Shown here piece by piece: positions 16,275 through 61,565 of a stretch of DNA of 64,000 bases; position 1 is the first letter of the stretch, and every line of letters begins with the position of its first letter. This DNA is from an uncultured Paracoccaceae bacterium (GTDB lineage: Bacteria > Pseudomonadota > Alphaproteobacteria > Rhodobacterales > Rhodobacteraceae), in the NCBI GenBank assembly GCA_937872465.1, contig CALMSR010000051.1, positions 124,001 through 188,000 on the forward strand. Direction: 5' to 3'. Under the pieces are notes generated by a model. The model did no database searches. It was not told the origin of the DNA and worked only from the letters and a program-made list of their open reading frames with translations. The position numbers and the translations under genes were made by a program.

Positions 16275-16298
16275 GCGCTGTCCCCATGGGGACAGCGC
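16275..16298. terminator. Perfect 24-bp palindrome after ilvBN (possible terminator)
   Basis: The half-site GCGCTGTCCCCA is followed immediately by its exact reverse complement, with no spacer, 24 bp downstream of the ilvN stop. It can form a very stable hairpin, but no T-run follows, so terminator function is uncertain; a protein-binding site is the alternative. Confidence 0.4.
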
Positions 16299-44012: not shown

Positions 44013-44038
44013 CCGGATGTGCGCATGCGCACATCCGG
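44013..44038. repeat. Perfect 26-bp palindrome between convergent genes (GATGTGCGC family)
   Basis: The half CCGGATGTGCGCA is followed by its exact reverse complement. It lies between the second lipoprotein stop and the putA stop, the position of a shared terminator. The inner 20 bases are GATGTGCGC, two bases, GCGCACATC; the same 20-mer with a different central pair recurs at 61416-61435. Confidence 0.65.
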
Positions 44039-53503: not shown

Positions 53504-54361
53504 TCATGTCGCGGCCCGGAACGACCGTGCGAAACCCGCGGTCTCCGCGAGCCTCTCCGGGTCGAGCCCGGTCTCGAACCCGAGCGCCGCCAGCCGGGCC
53601 GCCACCGCCTCGCTCGCCACGTTCCCCGGCGCTCCCGGCGCGAAGGGGCAGCCGCCCAAACCCCCGACCGAGGCGTCGAAGACCCGCAGGCCCCGCTCCA
53701 GCGCGACCTCGATATTGGCCATGGCCCGGCCGCCGGTATCGTGGAAATGGCCGGCCAGCCGCTCCGGCCCGACCACCCCGAGCACCGCATCGAGCATCGC
53801 GCCGATCCGCTGCGGCGTGCCGCGGCCGATGGTATCGCCCAGGCTGATCTCGTGGCAGCCGAGGGCGAGCAGGCTGCGCACCACCGCCACCACCGCCTCC
53901 GGCGCGATGCTTCCCTCGAAAGGACAATCGGTTATGCAGGAAACATAACCCCGCAGCGGAACGCGGTCGCGCCGCGCTGCCTCCGCGACCGGGGTGAAAC
54001 GCTCGAGGCTGCCCCCGATCGAGGCATTGACGTTGCGCTGGCTGAAGCTATCCGAGGCGGAGGTGAAGATCGCCACCTCGTCACAGCGTGCGGCATGCGC
54101 GGCGCCATAGCCCTGGAGATTCGGCACCAGCGCCGAATAGGCGATGCCCGGCCGGCGCTCGATCCCCGCCATCACCGCCGCGCCATCGGCCATCTGCGGC
54201 ACCCGGTCGGGGCTGACGAAGCTCGCCACCTCGATCCGCGAAAACCCGCAATCGCTCAACCGATTGATCAGCTCGATCTTGGAATCCGTCGGAATCGGCC
54301 GCGTCTCGTTCTGCAGCCCGTCCCGAGGGCCGACTTCATAGATCGTTACGCGATCAATCAT
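53504..54361 (-). CDS. Hydroxymethylglutaryl-CoA lyase
   Basis: The product is 285 residues of the HMGL-like TIM-barrel family. The N-terminus EVGPRDGLQNE holds the metal and substrate Asp and Arg. VASFVSP, GLGGCPFAPGAPGNVASE with the catalytic Cys, and GHFHDTGGRAMAN with metal His residues complete the site. It cleaves HMG-CoA to acetoacetate and acetyl-CoA, the last step of leucine degradation. It overlaps the end of the biotin carboxylase subunit gene by 8 bp, indicating coupled translation. Confidence 0.96.
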   Translation of the reverse strand: MIDRVTIYEVGPRDGLQNETRPIPTDSKIELINRLSDCGFSRIEVASFVSPDRVPQMADGAAVMAGIERRPGIAYSALVPNLQGYGAAHAARCDEVAIFTSASDSFSQRNVNASIGGSLERFTPVAEAARRDRVPLRGYVSCITDCPFEGSIAPEAVVAVVRSLLALGCHEISLGDTIGRGTPQRIGAMLDAVLGVVGPERLAGHFHDTGGRAMANIEVALERGLRVFDASVGGLGGCPFAPGAPGNVASEAVAARLAALGFETGLDPERLAETAGFARSFRAAT

Positions 54362-56306
54362 CCTGCGATCCGAGCCGGATCATAACCGTTCCCTCCGTGA
54401 CCTGCTGGCCCGCGGCAACGGCGACCTCCGCCACGGTGCCGTCCCTTGGCGCGGTCAGCGCATGCTCCATCTTCATCGCCTCGAGCACGACTAGGACGTC
54501 GCCGGCGGCCACCTGCGCCCCGGTCTCGACCGCGAGATGGCGCACGAGTCCCGGCATCGGCGCGCGGATCTCGTCGCCCGACCCCTGGACCTCTCCCGCT
54601 CCCGCCAGCGGATCGGGGCGCCGCAGCCCATGCGCCTCCGCACCCTCGAAGATCGTGAGGCTGCGCCCCGCGCGCGCGAGGCCGAAACGCCGTGCCACCC
54701 CATCGATGCGGCAGGCGAGTTCGCCGCCCTCGCAACGATCGACCGCAACCTCCTGTCCGGCCGCGAGAAACCGGCCCGGACCGCGCACCTCCAGCGCGAC
54801 CGTCTGGCGCTCCCCCTCCGCCTCCAGCACCACCTGGCGCCGCAGCGGCGCCCAGAGCGCAAAGCCGGCCAGCGGATCGGCGCAGGCCTCCAGCCCCTCG
54901 GCGGCGATCGCCGCGACGGCGAGCAGACCGGCGTCACGGGCCGCCGGCGGGGTCAGCGCGTCGATGTTGCGCTCGATGAGCCCGGTATCGACCCGTCCCG
55001 CCACGAAATCCGCCTGCCGCGCCAGCCGGGCGAGAAAGCCGAGATTGGTCACCGACCCGGCGACGCGGCTCGCCTCGAGCGCCCGGGCGAGCGCGCCGAG
55101 GGCGGTCGCCCGCGTCGGCCCGTGCACGATGAGCTTGGCGATCATCGGGTCGTACCAGGGGCTTATCGCATCCCCGGCGCGGATGCCGGCATCGACGCGG
55201 ACCCCGGGCGGAAAGGCGAGATGCGTGAGCGTCCCGATGGCCGGCAGGAAGTCGCGCGCCGGATCCTCGGCATAGAGCCGCGCCTCGAAGGCATGGCCCG
55301 AGATCGCGAGCGCCTCCTGCCGCAGCGGCAGCGGCTCCCCGGCGGCGACGCGCAGCTGCCATTCCACCAGATCGACCCCGGTGATCGCCTCGGTGACGGG
55401 ATGCTCGACCTGCAGCCGGGTGTTCATCTCCATGAACCAGAAGCCGTCGGGATGCAGCGCGCGGCTGCCGTCGACGATGAACTCGACCGTCCCCGCACCG
55501 GAATAGCCGATCGCCTGCGCCGCCCTGACCGCCGCCTCCCCCATGGCCTCGCGCATCACCGGCGTCATGCCCGGCGCCGGCGCCTCCTCGATCACCTTCT
55601 GGTGGCGGCGCTGCAGCGAGCAGTCCCGCTCGAAGAGATGCACGGCGTCGCCGAAGCCGTCGCCGAAGACCTGGATCTCGATATGGCGTGGTGCCGTGAC
55701 GTATTTCTCGACCAGCATCGCTTCGTTGCCGAAGGCGCCCTGCGCCTCGCGCCGCGCCGAGGCCAGCGCCGCGGCGAAATCGCGCGGATGCCCGACCCGG
55801 CGCATGCCCTTGCCACCGCCGCCCGCCACCGCCTTGATCAGCACCGGATAGCCGATCAGCGCCGCCTGTTCGGCGAGATAGCCGGGATCCTGCTCGGCGC
55901 CGTGATAGCCCGGCACCACCGGCACGCCGGCCTCCGCCATCAGCGCCTTGGCCGCGTCCTTCAGCCCCATGGCCCGGATCGCCGCCGCCGAGGGCCCGAT
56001 GAAGACGAGCCCCGCCGCCGCGACCCGCTCCACGAAGTCCGGATTCTCCGACAGGAAGCCGTAGCCGGGATGGATCGCTTCCGCGCCGGTCTCCAGCGCC
56101 GCCGCGATGATGCGCTCGCCGTTGAGGTAGCTCTCCGCCGCCGGCGCCAGGCCGATGCGGACCGCCGCATCCGCCATCGCCACGTGCTTCGCGCCGGCAT
56201 CCGCGTCGGAATGGACCGCCACCGTATCCACCCCGAGCCGCCGGCAGGTCGCCATCACCCGGCAGGCGATCTCTCCCCGATTGGCGATCAGCACCCGCTG
56301 GAACAT
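54354..56306 (-). CDS. Methylcrotonyl-CoA carboxylase, biotin-carrying alpha subunit
   Basis: The product is 650 residues. The biotin carboxylase domain (about 1-445) has RVLIANRGEIACRV, the ATP-grasp glycine loop GGGGKGMRRV and FMEMNTRLQVEHPVTEAI. A middle domain of about 110 residues follows, then a C-terminal biotinyl domain with VLEAMKMEHALTAP, whose Lys carries biotin. With the carboxyltransferase encoded at 56947-58554 it carboxylates 3-methylcrotonyl-CoA. I chose the ATG at 56306, with GGAGG 7 bases upstream. Confidence 0.95.
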   Translation of the reverse strand: MFQRVLIANRGEIACRVMATCRRLGVDTVAVHSDADAGAKHVAMADAAVRIGLAPAAESYLNGERIIAAALETGAEAIHPGYGFLSENPDFVERVAAAGLVFIGPSAAAIRAMGLKDAAKALMAEAGVPVVPGYHGAEQDPGYLAEQAALIGYPVLIKAVAGGGGKGMRRVGHPRDFAAALASARREAQGAFGNEAMLVEKYVTAPRHIEIQVFGDGFGDAVHLFERDCSLQRRHQKVIEEAPAPGMTPVMREAMGEAAVRAAQAIGYSGAGTVEFIVDGSRALHPDGFWFMEMNTRLQVEHPVTEAITGVDLVEWQLRVAAGEPLPLRQEALAISGHAFEARLYAEDPARDFLPAIGTLTHLAFPPGVRVDAGIRAGDAISPWYDPMIAKLIVHGPTRATALGALARALEASRVAGSVTNLGFLARLARQADFVAGRVDTGLIERNIDALTPPAARDAGLLAVAAIAAEGLEACADPLAGFALWAPLRRQVVLEAEGERQTVALEVRGPGRFLAAGQEVAVDRCEGGELACRIDGVARRFGLARAGRSLTIFEGAEAHGLRRPDPLAGAGEVQGSGDEIRAPMPGLVRHLAVETGAQVAAGDVLVVLEAMKMEHALTAPRDGTVAEVAVAAGQQVTEGTVMIRLGSQDD

Positions 56307-56325
56307 CACCGACCTCCAGGAAGCG

Positions 56326-56841
56326 TTAGCACCAGCCCCCACGCAGGGATCCGAAGTACCGGCGCCCGTTTCCGCTCTTCACCATGGCGGTCGCCACCCG
56401 TTGTCCCCCGAGACGCATGTCCGCGAGCCACCGCCCGAAGTGGTCGTGTCCTTGGAAGCCCACCTCCACCGGTGTCTGCCGGGCCAGGTTTCTCAGGGCC
56501 TGCGTCGCTCGCAGAGCCGCGGCATGTTCCGCCTCGCACATGGGCGAGAAGAGTTCCGGTGCATCGTAGCCCACGATCCGCACCCGCATCGTCCCGCGCC
56601 CCGGACAAGCGAGATCGACGGTGTCCCCGTCGATCGCCCGCACCATACGGCAGTCCGAACGCATGGCCCGCATCGACGACATCCTGTCGTCCACGGCCGG
56701 CGCCAGCAGCGCGTAGCCGCCCGAGAGGAGCGCAAAGGCCGCGATCCAGAACAGCGCGGCCTGCAATTCCGTCCTGCCGCGCCGCCAGCGCCCGCGGGAA
56801 ATCCGGCGAGGCCGCCTGAAAGGCACGACCTTCCTTCTCAT
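56326..56841 (-). CDS. Thermonuclease (SNase-like) domain protein with N-terminal membrane segment
   Basis: The product is 171 residues. A very basic N-terminus (RRKVVPFRRPRRISRGRWRRGR) precedes a hydrophobic helix (LFWIAAFALLSGGYALLAP). The SNase-like fold follows: CRMVRAIDGDTVDLACPGRGTMRVRIVGYDAPELFSP, with the family Asp/Asp and Arg, and GHDHFGRWLADMRLGGQRVATAMV. Secreted or membrane-anchored SNase-like proteins cut DNA or RNA; activity here is untested. It lies in the leucine operon, 20 bp before the biotin carboxylase gene, with no pathway reason. The ribosome site is weak. Confidence 0.85.
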   Translation of the reverse strand: MRRKVVPFRRPRRISRGRWRRGRTELQAALFWIAAFALLSGGYALLAPAVDDRMSSMRAMRSDCRMVRAIDGDTVDLACPGRGTMRVRIVGYDAPELFSPMCEAEHAAALRATQALRNLARQTPVEVGFQGHDHFGRWLADMRLGGQRVATAMVKSGNGRRYFGSLRGGWC

Positions 56842-56946
56842 GCCGCGCTGCGGCTTCGGCGGGGTCCAATGGGTCCGCGATTCTTCGCCATGTCGCGCCT
56901 CCGGGCGCCCAGCCTGCCCCCGCCTTGGAGAAGAAATTCTTAACGC

Positions 56947-58554
56947 TCACATCCGGAACACGCCGAAGCGCGTCTCCCCGATGGGCAGGTTGAGCGCCGC
57001 CGCCAGGCTCAGCGCCAGCACCGCCCGGGACTTCCTCGGGTCGATCACCCCGTCGTCCCAGAGCCGGGCGCTGGCATAGAGCGGATGCGACTGGCGCGCG
57101 AACATCTCCAGCGTCGGCGCCTTGAACGCCGCCTCCTCCGCCGCGCTCCAGCTGCCGCCGCGCCGCTCGATCCCCTCGCGCCGCACCGCGGCGAGCACGC
57201 CCGCCGCCTGCTCGCCGCCCATCACCGAGATGCGGCTGTTGGGCCAAGTCCAGAGGAAGCGCGGCTGGAAGGCCCGCCCCGCCATGCCGTAGTTCCCGGC
57301 CCCGAAGGAGCCGCCGACCAGCAGCGTGACCTTCGGCACCGCCGTGGTCGCCACCGCCGTCACCAGCTTCGCCCCGTGCCGCGCGATGCCCTCGTTCTCG
57401 TAGCGCCGCCCGACCATGAAGCCGGTGATGTTCTGCAGGAACACCAGCGGGATGCGCCGCTGCGAGCACAATTCGACGAAATGCGCGCCCTTCACCGCGC
57501 TCTCCGAGAAAAGCACGCCGTTGTTCGCCACGAGCCCGACCGGAATGCCCGCCACATGCGCGAAGCCGCAGACCAGCGTCGCCCCGAACCGCGCCTTGAA
57601 CTCGTCGAAGCGCGAGCCGTCCACCAGCCGCGCGATCACCTCGCGGATGTCGTAGGGCGTGCGCAGATCCGCCGGCACCACGCCGAGGATCTCGTCCGGA
57701 TCGCAGGCCGGCTCCTCGGGCGCCTGCATCGCCACATGGGGGCGCCGGGGCCGGTTCAGCCCCGCCACCGCCTGCCGCGCCAGGGCAAGCGCATGCGCGT
57801 CGTCGTCGGCGAGGTAATCCGCAACGCCCGAGAGCCGCGTATGCACGTCGCCGCCGCCGAGGTCCTCGGCGCTCACCTCCTCCCCGGTCGCGGCCTTCAC
57901 CAGCGGCGGGCCGGCGAGAAAGATCGTGCCCTGGTCGCGCACGATGATGCTCACATCCGCCATCGCCGGAACATAGGCCCCGCCCGCGGTGCAGGATCCC
58001 ATCACCACCGCGATCTGGGGGATGGCGCGGGCCGACATCTGCGCCTGATTGTAGAAGATGCGCCCGAAATGCTCGCGGTCGGGAAAGACCTCGTCCTGGT
58101 TCGGCAGGTTCGCCCCGCCGCTGTCCACCAGATAGATGCAGGGCAGCCCGTTCTCCGCCGCGATCTCCTGGGCGCGCAGGTGCTTCTTCACCGTCAGCGG
58201 ATAATAGGTCCCGCCCTTCACCGTGGCGTCATTGGCCACGACCATCACCGGCTGGCTCTCCACCCGCCCCACCCCGGCGATCAGCCCCGCCCCCGGCGCG
58301 GCGCCGTCGTAGAGCCCATGCGCCGCCAGCGCGCCGATCTCGAGAAACGGCGCGCCGGCATCGAGCAGCATCGCCACCCGTTCCCGCGGCAGCATCTTGC
58401 CCCGGGCGACATGCCGCGCCGAAGCCTCCGCCCCGCCCCCGTCCGCCGCGGCGGCGGCCGCCGCCTCGATCTCGGCCAGCGCCGCCAGATGCGTCGCCTG
58501 GTTGGCGCGGAACGCGGCCGAAGCCGGGCTGGCCGAGGAGGCGATCACCGCCAT
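56947..58554 (-). CDS. Methylcrotonyl-CoA carboxylase, carboxyltransferase beta subunit
   Basis: The product is 535 residues of the acyl-CoA carboxyltransferase family. Motifs include [64 protein letters not shown] (typical of MCC beta), [16 protein letters not shown], and [43 protein letters not shown]. It transfers the carboxyl group from biotin to 3-methylcrotonyl-CoA. It starts inside the 34-residue ORF that follows ivd and is followed by a nuclease-like gene. Confidence 0.96.
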
Positions 58555-58649
58555 GCGCGAGGCTCCGGAGCTTGCGGACCGGGCGCGATGGCCTCCACCC
58601 GCTCCTGCAGGACCCGCGCCGTGCCGCCGCCGGAGCTCGGGGCCTTCAT
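58545..58649 (-). CDS. Possible 34-residue ORF coupled to ivd and mccB
   Basis: An ATG at 58649 overlaps the ivd stop (ATGA), and the frame runs 34 codons ([20 protein letters not shown] and 14 more) to a TGA at 58545 that lies inside the first codons of the carboxyltransferase gene. Tight overlap at both ends suggests translational coupling. The peptide is Gly, Pro and Arg-rich and matches nothing I know. It may be only a spacer read by chance. Confidence 0.3.
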
Positions 58650-59809
58650 TCCGTCGCCGTCATCAGTTCCCGCCCGATCAGCATCCGCCGGATCTCCGAG
58701 GTGCCGGCGCCGATCTCCATCAGCTTGGCGTCGCGCATGATCCGCGCGAGCGGGCTCTCGGCGAGATAGCCCGCGCCCCCCATCGCCTGCACGCCCTGCA
58801 CCGCCGCCTTCATGCCCTGCTCCGAGGCATAGAGCACGCAGGCCGCCGCATCGGCCCGCCGCACCGCGCCCCGGTCGCAGGCCGCGGCCACCGCGTACAT
58901 ATAGGCCCGCGCCGTGCTGAGCGCGGTGTAGAGATCGGCGACCTTGCCCTGCATCAGCTGGAAATCGCCAATCCTTTCACCGAACTGCCGCCGCTCGTGC
59001 ATGTAGGGCATGATATGGTCGAGCACCGCGTGCATGAGCCCGACATTCACCCCCGAGAGCACCACCCGCTCGTAGTCGAGCCCCGACATCAGCACCCTGA
59101 CCCCGCGCCCTTCCGCGCCGAGCACGTTCGCGAAGGGCACCTCGACATCCGAGAAGATCAGCTCGCCGGTGTTCGAGCCGCGCATGCCGAGCTTGTCGAA
59201 ATGCTTGCTCGTCGAGAACCCCGCCATGGTCTTCTCGATCAGGAAGGCGGTGATGCCCTTCGCGCCCGCCTCCGGGTCGGTCTTGGCATAGACCACCAGC
59301 ACATCGGCGTCCGGCCCGTTGGTGATCCAGTATTTCGTGCCGTTGAGCACGTAGCGGTCGTTCCGCTTCTCGGCCCGGAGCTTCATCGAGACCACGTCCG
59401 AGCCCGCGCCCGCCTCGGACATCGCCAGCGCCCCGACCTGCGCACCGGAGATCAGCCCGGGCAGATAGCGCGCCTTCTGCTCCGCGCTGCCGTTGAGCGC
59501 GATCTGGTTGACGCAGAGGTTGGAATGCGCCCCGTAGCTCAGCGCCACGCTGGCGGAGGCGCGCGCGATCTCCTCCACCGCCACGCAATGGGCGAGATAC
59601 CCCATGCCGGCGCCGCCCTCGGCCTCCGGCACGGTGATCCCGAGGATGCCGAGATCGCCCATCTCGCGCCACAAGGCGGCGGGAAAGAGGTTGCTGCGGT
59701 CGATCTCGGCGGCCATGGGCGCCACGCGCTCCTGCGCCCAGGAGGCGACCAGATCGCGCAGCGCCGCGATGTCCTCGCCGAGCGCAAAATCCATCGACGC
59801 CAGAAACAT
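58646..59809 (-). CDS. ivd: Isovaleryl-CoA dehydrogenase
   Basis: The product is 387 residues of the acyl-CoA dehydrogenase family. The FAD-binding blocks are [21 protein letters not shown] and [18 protein letters not shown]. The catalytic Glu of isovaleryl-CoA dehydrogenases sits in [11 protein letters not shown], while the alternative C-terminal position reads [11 protein letters not shown], as in this subfamily. It oxidises isovaleryl-CoA to 3-methylcrotonyl-CoA and passes electrons to ETF. I chose the ATG at 59809, with AAGGAA upstream. It heads the minus-strand leucine cluster and diverges from hisB. Confidence 0.95.
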
Positions 59810-59867: not shown

Positions 59868-59916
59868 TTGGAACGGCTCCGACGGCGGTCTATAGACCGC
59901 CCGAGCAGCATTCCAA
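59868..59916. promoter_or_regulatory. Symmetric overlapping promoters of hisB and ivd sharing a palindromic -10
   Basis: Rightward: TTGGAA (59868-59873), 17 bp, TATAGA (59891-59896). Leftward: TTGGAA (minus strand of 59911-59916), 16 bp, TATAGA (minus strand of 59889-59894). The two -10 elements overlap within a perfect 18-bp palindrome, GGCGGTCTATAGACCGCC (59884-59901). Each promoter transcribes outward through the other's -35, toward hisB at 59929 and ivd at 59809, so one polymerase at a time should bind. Confidence 0.6.
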
Positions 59917-59928
59917 GGAAAGCCCCCC

Positions 59929-60513
59929 ATGCGCAAGGCCGAAGTCAGCCGCACCACCGCCGAGACCGCGCTGACCGTCGCGCTCGATCTCGACGGCACC
60001 GGCGCCTACGACAATGCCACCGGCGTCGGCTTCTTCGACCACATGCTCGACCAGCTCGCGCGCCACGCGATGATCGACATCAGGACCAGGGCCACGGGGG
60101 ACCTGCATATCGACGACCACCACACCGTCGAGGACATCGGCATCGCGCTCGGGCGGGCGCTCGCCGAGGCGCTCGGCGACAAGACGGGGATCCGCCGCTA
60201 CGGCTCCTGCCTCCTGCCCATGGACGAGGCGCTGGTGCGCGCCGCGCTCGATCTCTCGGGCCGGCCCTTTCTCGTCTGGAAGGTCGATTTCCCGAGCGCG
60301 AAGATCGGCAGCTTCGACACCGAGCTGGTGCGCGAGTTCTGGACCGCGGTGGCGATGAACGCACGCATGACGCTCAACGTCGCCTGTCTCGACGGCGCCA
60401 ACAGCCACCACATCGCCGAGGCCAGCTTCAAGGCGATCGCCCAGGCGCTGCGCATGGCCGTCGAGCCCGATCCGCGCGCCGCCGGCATTCCCTCGACCAA
60501 GGGCGTGCTCTAG
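59929..60513 (+). CDS. hisB: Imidazoleglycerol-phosphate dehydratase
   Basis: The product is 194 residues, the stand-alone bacterial form without the phosphatase domain of enteric HisB. Metal and catalytic motifs are [31 protein letters not shown], and the later [23 protein letters not shown] with two His. It forms imidazole-acetol phosphate in histidine synthesis. It precedes hisH by 4 bp and is driven by the symmetric promoter at 59868-59916. Confidence 0.97.
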
Positions 60514-60517
60514 GCCC

Positions 60518-61159
60518 ATGACCTGCGTCATCGTCGATTACGAGAGCGGCAACCTGCATTCGGCGCTGAAGAGCTTCCAGCGCATGGCCGCCGAGACCGG
60601 CGCCGGCCCGGTGACGATCAGCGCCGATCCGGCAGCGGTGCGCGATGCCGAGCGGATCGTGCTGCCCGGCGTCGGCGCCTTCGCCGATTGCCGCGCCGGG
60701 CTCATGGCCCGGCCGGGGCTCTTCGCGGCGATCGAGGCCCGCGTCATCGGCGAGCGCGCGCCCTTCCTCGGGATCTGCGTCGGCGAGCAGATGATGGCCA
60801 CCTGGGGCCGCGAGCACGGGCTCGACACGCCCGGCTTCGGCTGGATCCCCGGCGAGGTCCTGCGCATCGCGCCCTCGGACCCGGCTTTGAAGATCCCGCA
60901 TATGGGCTGGAACGCGCTCGAGGATCTGGCGCCCCACCCGCTGCTCGAGGGCATCGCCGCCGGCGATCACGCCTATTTCGTGCATTCCTACCATCTTGTC
61001 GCCGAGAACCCCGCCCATGTGCTCGCCCGCACCGACCACGGCGGCACGATCACCGCCATGGTCGGGCGCGACAATCTGGCGGGCACCCAGTTCCATCCCG
61101 AGAAGAGCCAGAAGACCGGCCTGCGGCTGATCGCCAATTTTCTCCACTGGCGGCCTTGA
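60518..61159 (+). CDS. hisH: Imidazole glycerol phosphate synthase, glutaminase subunit HisH
   Basis: The product is 213 residues. It is a class I glutamine amidotransferase: the nucleophile is Cys87 in FLGICVGEQMM, and the His and Glu of the triad are in GTQFHPEKSQ. PGVGAFADC and the HSY-containing VHSYHLVAE are typical of HisH. It supplies ammonia to HisF, whose gene is not in the window. The two genes hisB-hisH form an operon that ends before a 406 bp convergent gap. Confidence 0.97.
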   Translation: MTCVIVDYESGNLHSALKSFQRMAAETGAGPVTISADPAAVRDAERIVLPGVGAFADCRAGLMARPGLFAAIEARVIGERAPFLGICVGEQMMATWGREHGLDTPGFGWIPGEVLRIAPSDPALKIPHMGWNALEDLAPHPLLEGIAAGDHAYFVHSYHLVAENPAHVLARTDHGGTITAMVGRDNLAGTQFHPEKSQKTGLRLIANFLHWRP

Positions 61160-61565
61160 ACCGCTCCGGGGGCGACGGAAGCCGGAGCGCCGCCCGTGCG
61201 GACGCCGGAGTGATCGCATTGGAGCCGATTGTTCCCGGTGCGACCGCCCCGCTGCCCGGCGGTGCCTGGCCTCGGCCGGATGGCAACGCTCGGCGCGCCC
61301 GGATGCGGTCCTTTTGCCGGATGCGCTTCTTCTTTCGATCACGATGTCACGTCGTGCAGCGTGAAGATCCGGTAAACGTGAGAATCTTTATCGTTTAATT
61401 TCATACGATTACCACGATGTGCGCGCGCGCACATCGGGCCCGGATCCGGATGGATGCCACCCCGGCACGACAGCAGCGGGGCTTGCCGCGCGATCGGGAA
61501 AGGCCGGGGCGCTCCTGAGCGAAGCCCCGATCGCGACCCGCACCCCGCCCCGGAGCCTGCGGCCG
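61160..61565. other. 406 bp convergent gap without a recognised gene
   Basis: This lies between the hisH and galM stops. It holds an AT-rich stretch (61376-61412) directly followed by the palindrome at 61415-61436, and otherwise GC-rich DNA in which I see no gene. A CACGA...TCGTG inverted repeat (61342-61358) may be incidental. Confidence 0.4.
61415..61436. repeat. Perfect 22-bp palindrome between convergent genes (GATGTGCGC family)
   Basis: The half CGATGTGCGCG is followed by its exact reverse complement. The inner 20 bases are GATGTGCGC, two bases, GCGCACATC, identical to those at 44016-44035 except for the central pair. As at that site, it lies between converging genes, so it may be a terminator or a dispersed palindrome. 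Confidence 0.65.

Follow-up and report, generated by a model that had tools for sequence, protein, structure and literature searches.

A mirror-symmetric, probably bidirectional promoter between hisB and a leucine-degradation cluster in a Paracoccaceae genome

The short gap between hisB and the divergently oriented ivd cluster for leucine degradation appears to hold a single housekeeping sigma70-type promoter with a shared palindromic -10 element, probably used in both directions and with an ivd side acquired within the lineage. The site lies near one end of the window, a stretch of 64,000 nucleotides from an uncultured Paracoccaceae bacterium. Every element that the initial annotation had described was recovered as described: a TTGGAA hexamer on each strand, a perfect 18-bp palindrome and a TATAGA hexamer read in both directions, with spacings of 17 bp on the plus strand and 16 bp on the minus strand (Table 1). 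In the proposed mechanism, RNA polymerase would bind in either orientation at the shared palindromic -10. In one orientation the left TTGGAA would be used and hisB-hisH transcribed from about position 59903, while in the other the right TTGGAA would be used and the ivd cluster transcribed from about 59882. These starts, predicted from the -10 positions, are separated by 21 bp. The hisB half would be the ancestral part. As for ivd, it would have lost its own TetR-controlled promoter and the gap would have contracted; the ivd half would then have arisen in the lineage and taken over the gene. From the sequence comparisons we infer that the ivd-facing half is bound by polymerase and drives ivd, and that the events fell in this order. 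Polymerase occupancy would presumably be mutually exclusive. The initial annotation went further and had hisBH and the ivd cluster competing for one polymerase-binding site; such competition would follow from the geometry and is possible, but it is not the default. Of the bidirectional promoters of E. coli, five were tested and proved too weak to compete at basal activity; competition appeared once one direction was strongly activated (PMC12825309).

Table 1. Promoter elements and genes at the hisB-ivd site, in window coordinates.
Feature	Position	Strand	Basis or remark
hisB-directed -35, TTGGAA	59868-59873	+	In 91 related hisB promoters the aligned -35 is mostly CTTGG
hisB-directed -10, TATAGA	59891-59896	+	In register with the CTATAAG that precedes hisB across Rhodobacterales
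ivd-directed -35-like, TTGGAA	59911-59916 (minus strand 59916-59911)	-	Score joint top in the window with the forward site
ivd-directed -10-like, TATAGA	59889-59894 (minus strand 59894-59889)	-	No other credible TA-hexamer in the gap on this strand
Perfect 18-bp palindrome GGCGGTCTATAGACCGCC	59884-59901	both	Single copy in the genome, not in relatives
hisB Shine-Dalgarno, AAGGA	59915-59919	+	Position relative to hisB ATG at 59929; partly common with the reverse -35
hisB, imidazoleglycerol-phosphate dehydratase	59929-60513	+	NCBIfam NF002109, 315.7 bits, above cutoff
hisH, imidazole glycerol phosphate synthase subunit	60518-61159	+	TIGR01855, 189 bits, above cutoff
ivd-type acyl-CoA dehydrogenase (isovaleryl-CoA dehydrogenase by context), start MFLASMDF at 59809	58646-59809	-	Pfam acyl-CoA dehydrogenase domains
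Remainder of leucine-degradation cluster	53504-58554	-	Methylcrotonyl-CoA carboxylase beta and alpha (similarity, context), hydroxymethylglutaryl-CoA lyase, nuclease-like gene between

The start of ivd was set at 59809 because the conserved alignment of its relatives begins at that methionine. A longer ivd open frame, which reaches 59911 and overlaps the promoter, was set aside as unsupported. The gap between ivd and hisB in the window is 119 bp. The nuclease-like gene of the leucine-degradation cluster is of the staphylococcal-nuclease (SNase) kind and occupies 56326-56841 on the minus strand, between the two methylcrotonyl-CoA carboxylase subunits.

Judged by its alignment with relatives, the hisB-directed half is a conserved, ancestral hisB promoter. 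A promoter of the form CTTGG-N17-CTATAAG lies upstream of hisB in 91 Rhodobacterales loci, and the hisB half of the window aligns with it. A weight matrix was built from these 91 promoters, with the window excluded, and used as a profile to scan the window. The two sites rank first and second among 127,986 positions with a score of 17.5 each, while the next position scores 11.8. In related hisB promoters the middle half of the score distribution runs from 18.6 to 23.8, so both halves in the window are somewhat weaker than typical. None of the 91 related promoters has a T at -7, and A occupies this position on both strands of the hisB-ivd site. A scan with the standard sigma70 consensus found no promoter here because that consensus demands a T at -7. 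Most alphaproteobacterial sigma70 promoters lack this T and have been proposed to depend on CarD (PMC8407463). The site resembles them in its TTG-type -35, its TATA-type -10 with A at -7 and its spacing near 17. The genome also encodes a CarD-domain protein besides the long Mfd-like one, which fits a -10 without T at -7 (PMC8407463).

The reading of a symmetric -10 as a source of divergent transcription, which the initial annotation offered beside that of a dimeric regulator, is the better of the two, given the profile ranking and the content of the gap. Within the 119-bp gap, the ivd strand has just two TA-hexamers, the TATAGA of the palindrome and, two bases on, TAGACC (59892). With no other credible -10, any ivd promoter within the gap would have to be the palindromic TATAGA. 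In E. coli and Salmonella, symmetry of the -10 is an established source of bidirectional promoters (PMC12825309, PMC10268837); this symmetric -10 type is credited to Warman et al. 2021, as cited in PMC12825309. As in that type, one near-symmetric -10 stands between divergent genes with predicted opposite-strand starts some 20 bp apart, and the two opposite-strand hexamers have TATA in common, the overlap by which such promoters are recognized. Unlike that type, the symmetry reaches across an 18-bp perfect palindrome and mirrored -35 hexamers. The site also differs from the 18-bp arrangement in that its -10 ends in A and the reciprocal pairing of -7T with -11A, the commonest arrangement though not required of all, is missing. 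As a counterpoint to the bidirectional reading, the predicted starts lie 21 bp apart, whereas in E. coli the commonest separation is 18 bp, and 10 and 23 bp are frequent as well (PMC12825309, PMC10268837).

How far the symmetry exceeds chance depends on which part of it is considered. In DNA of 69% GC, an 18-bp palindrome is nothing unusual by itself: the window holds four palindromes of at least 18 bp, and simulation at this composition predicts about 1.6 per 64 kb. Three perfect palindromes in the window are longer, with lengths of 24 bp (16275-16298), 26 bp (44013-44038) and 22 bp (61415-61436), and lie just 3' of an ilvN-like gene, a putA-like gene and hisH, respectively. The 26-bp and 22-bp palindromes have the arms ATGTGCGC/GCGCACAT in common. 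These longer palindromes are possibly transcription terminators or a dispersed repeat. The conjunction of elements is rarer. The pattern TTGGAA-N10-20-TATAGA occurs twice in the window, on the two strands of this site, against an expectation of zero, and CTTGG-N-CTATAR has two matches in 4.4 Mb, both at the hisB-ivd site. The symmetric pattern CTTG-N18-22-TATA-N18-22-CAAG occurs once in the genome, at this site, and its reversed control occurs twice. The combination was chosen post hoc, after it had been seen. With the TCTA core held fixed, 5 of 50,000 simulations gave whole-arm similarity as good as that seen. When the AAG of the hisB ribosome-binding site was fixed as well, the count rose to 164 of 50,000 (0.3%). 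The conjunction is thus beyond chance, though less strikingly once the Shine-Dalgarno overlap is allowed for, and since the hisB ribosome-binding site and the reverse -35 have bases in common, the symmetry is possibly in part a coincidence.

This overlap is the root of the main rival explanation, a one-way hisB promoter with a largely idle mirror half. The reverse half would then be a by-product of a TATA-type -10 with a Shine-Dalgarno about 16 bp downstream and would do little in the cell, and transcription of ivd would begin within hisB or at a promoter that escaped recognition. When the -10 is read in reverse, the Shine-Dalgarno complement in the hisB leaders of several relatives (among them L095, L072, L036 and L092) lies at about the -35 distance. 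The resulting partial reverse promoters, which have no known function, score fairly well (15.9 at best), suggesting that the hisB leader has a built-in tendency toward a reverse promoter; genes with short leaders may in general be prone to bidirectionality. A shared origin of this kind, the sharing of bases between the reverse -35 and hisB AAGGA, the 0.3% of simulations that reach similar arm similarity with the ribosome-binding site fixed and the lack of conservation of the symmetry all suit a one-way promoter. They are set against a reverse site that ties with the forward one as the best of 128k positions, a gap with no other -10 for ivd and a palindrome arm around the TATA core that extends 9 bp in the window but at most 3 bp in any of the 91 relatives. 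On balance a one-way promoter is a minority prospect, albeit one to be taken seriously.

The history of the ivd side bears on the preferred, bidirectional reading. Across Rhodobacterales, a TetR-family protein and a TGAAC-N4-GTTCA operator at ivd apparently provide a LiuQ-like control of leucine degradation throughout the family. The operator or a close variant of it occurs in 29 of 37 distinct ivd upstream regions from relatives (among them L118, L119 and L130-L155), usually 3' of a TTGAC-type -35 and near the start codon. The protein (PF00440, PF17932) is widespread in the family and is present in the operator-carrying congeners G003 and G010. In L127 and L128, a similar operator appears just upstream of the TetR gene (L128:1453-2067, minus strand), as inferred from translated frames only. 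The co-occurrence of operator and TetR protein looks like the arrangement in betaproteobacteria, where the TetR-type LiuQ controls operons for branched-chain amino acid degradation (PMC5343134). The window's genome differs from the LiuQ operons in that TetR control of ivd would have been lost. The best match to TGAAC-N4-GTTCA in its ivd-hisB gap agrees at only 6 of 10 bases, and at the E-value thresholds applied the TetR proteins of G003 and G010 matched nothing in G004 or in the window's genome, which is 99.96% complete. The one exact TGAAC-N4-GTTCA elsewhere in the window's genome precedes an ispDF-type gene, with a CTATAAG promoter beside it, and was regarded as unrelated. G003, G004 and four more members of the family likewise have ivd and hisB as divergent neighbors, separated by 214 to 789 bp versus 119 bp in the window, and the window's genome and G004 are the two with this neighborhood but no operator. 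G004 (L120 / L007) has kept a 214-bp gap. It is a further counterpoint to the bidirectional reading in that it is without operator and TetR yet has no palindrome, indicating that another solution exists.

The same comparisons date the symmetry. The palindrome was not found upstream of hisB in the 91 Rhodobacterales relatives. The initial annotation had counted a lack of conservation of the palindrome, where the gene order is kept, as a refutation of its reading. G003 and G004, the two congeners with ivd and hisB still in divergent order, are without it. Their lack of a palindrome rules out a conserved operator and leaves a promoter born within the lineage tenable. As far as alignment with these relatives goes, the closest of which share 83-84% HisB identity, the palindrome and the reverse half are lineage-specific and private to the window's genome. 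Being confined to one genome, the palindrome and the reverse -35 are features for which purifying selection cannot be shown.

The alternative raised by the initial annotation, a dimeric regulator on the 18-bp palindrome, is improbable; such a protein would cover the -10 and repress hisB and ivd alike. The palindrome is perfect, of operator-like length and centered on the -10, and these are the traits in its favor. An operator would be kept with its target gene or repeated in the genome, and this palindrome is neither. A genome search with the 18-mer, which the initial annotation proposed as the check for an operator, found no other copy within two mismatches and fewer matches with three mismatches than for the reversed control; the 12-bp core with one mismatch likewise showed no excess over its reversed control. 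Together with its absence from the relatives and the lack of a regulator gene adjoining it, this speaks against an operator. Least probable of all is a mutational relic: one promoter half would have been copied in inverted form by a template switch seeded at TCTATAGA, and the symmetry would testify to that mutation regardless of any use. The halves are identical over the inner 9 bp and the outer 7 bp (CTTGGAA), but the stretches in between have different lengths, 10 and 9, and are no more alike than shuffles, 83% of which do just as well. Spacers so dissimilar show no trace of a single recent, unbroken inverted copy, so template switching was rejected as the sole cause, even if it could also be how the bidirectional promoter originated.

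The hisB-ivd promoter is best read as a lineage-specific addition to the known Warman/Grainger-type promoters, with the alphaproteobacterial preference for a base other than T at -7. A more ambitious account would make it a captured and rewired promoter: after loss of TetR and its operator, a mirror-symmetric CarD-type hisB promoter would drive the ivd operon, the synthesis of one amino acid would compete with the breakdown of another for a single polymerase site, and the symmetry would take in the promoter in full (-35, spacer end and -10). In this full form the account is speculative and rather unlikely. Bidirectional promoters are known to be common, while their origin is less clear. Here, the likely states before and after can be read in relatives, from separate promoters with a TetR operator on ivd to one symmetric promoter in a shrunken gap. 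The site also suggests what bidirectional promoters may look like in bacteria whose -10 elements lack T at -7, where the usual symmetry rule fails. If the bidirectional reading is true, an operon can pass from substrate-controlled to housekeeping expression by way of its neighbor's promoter.
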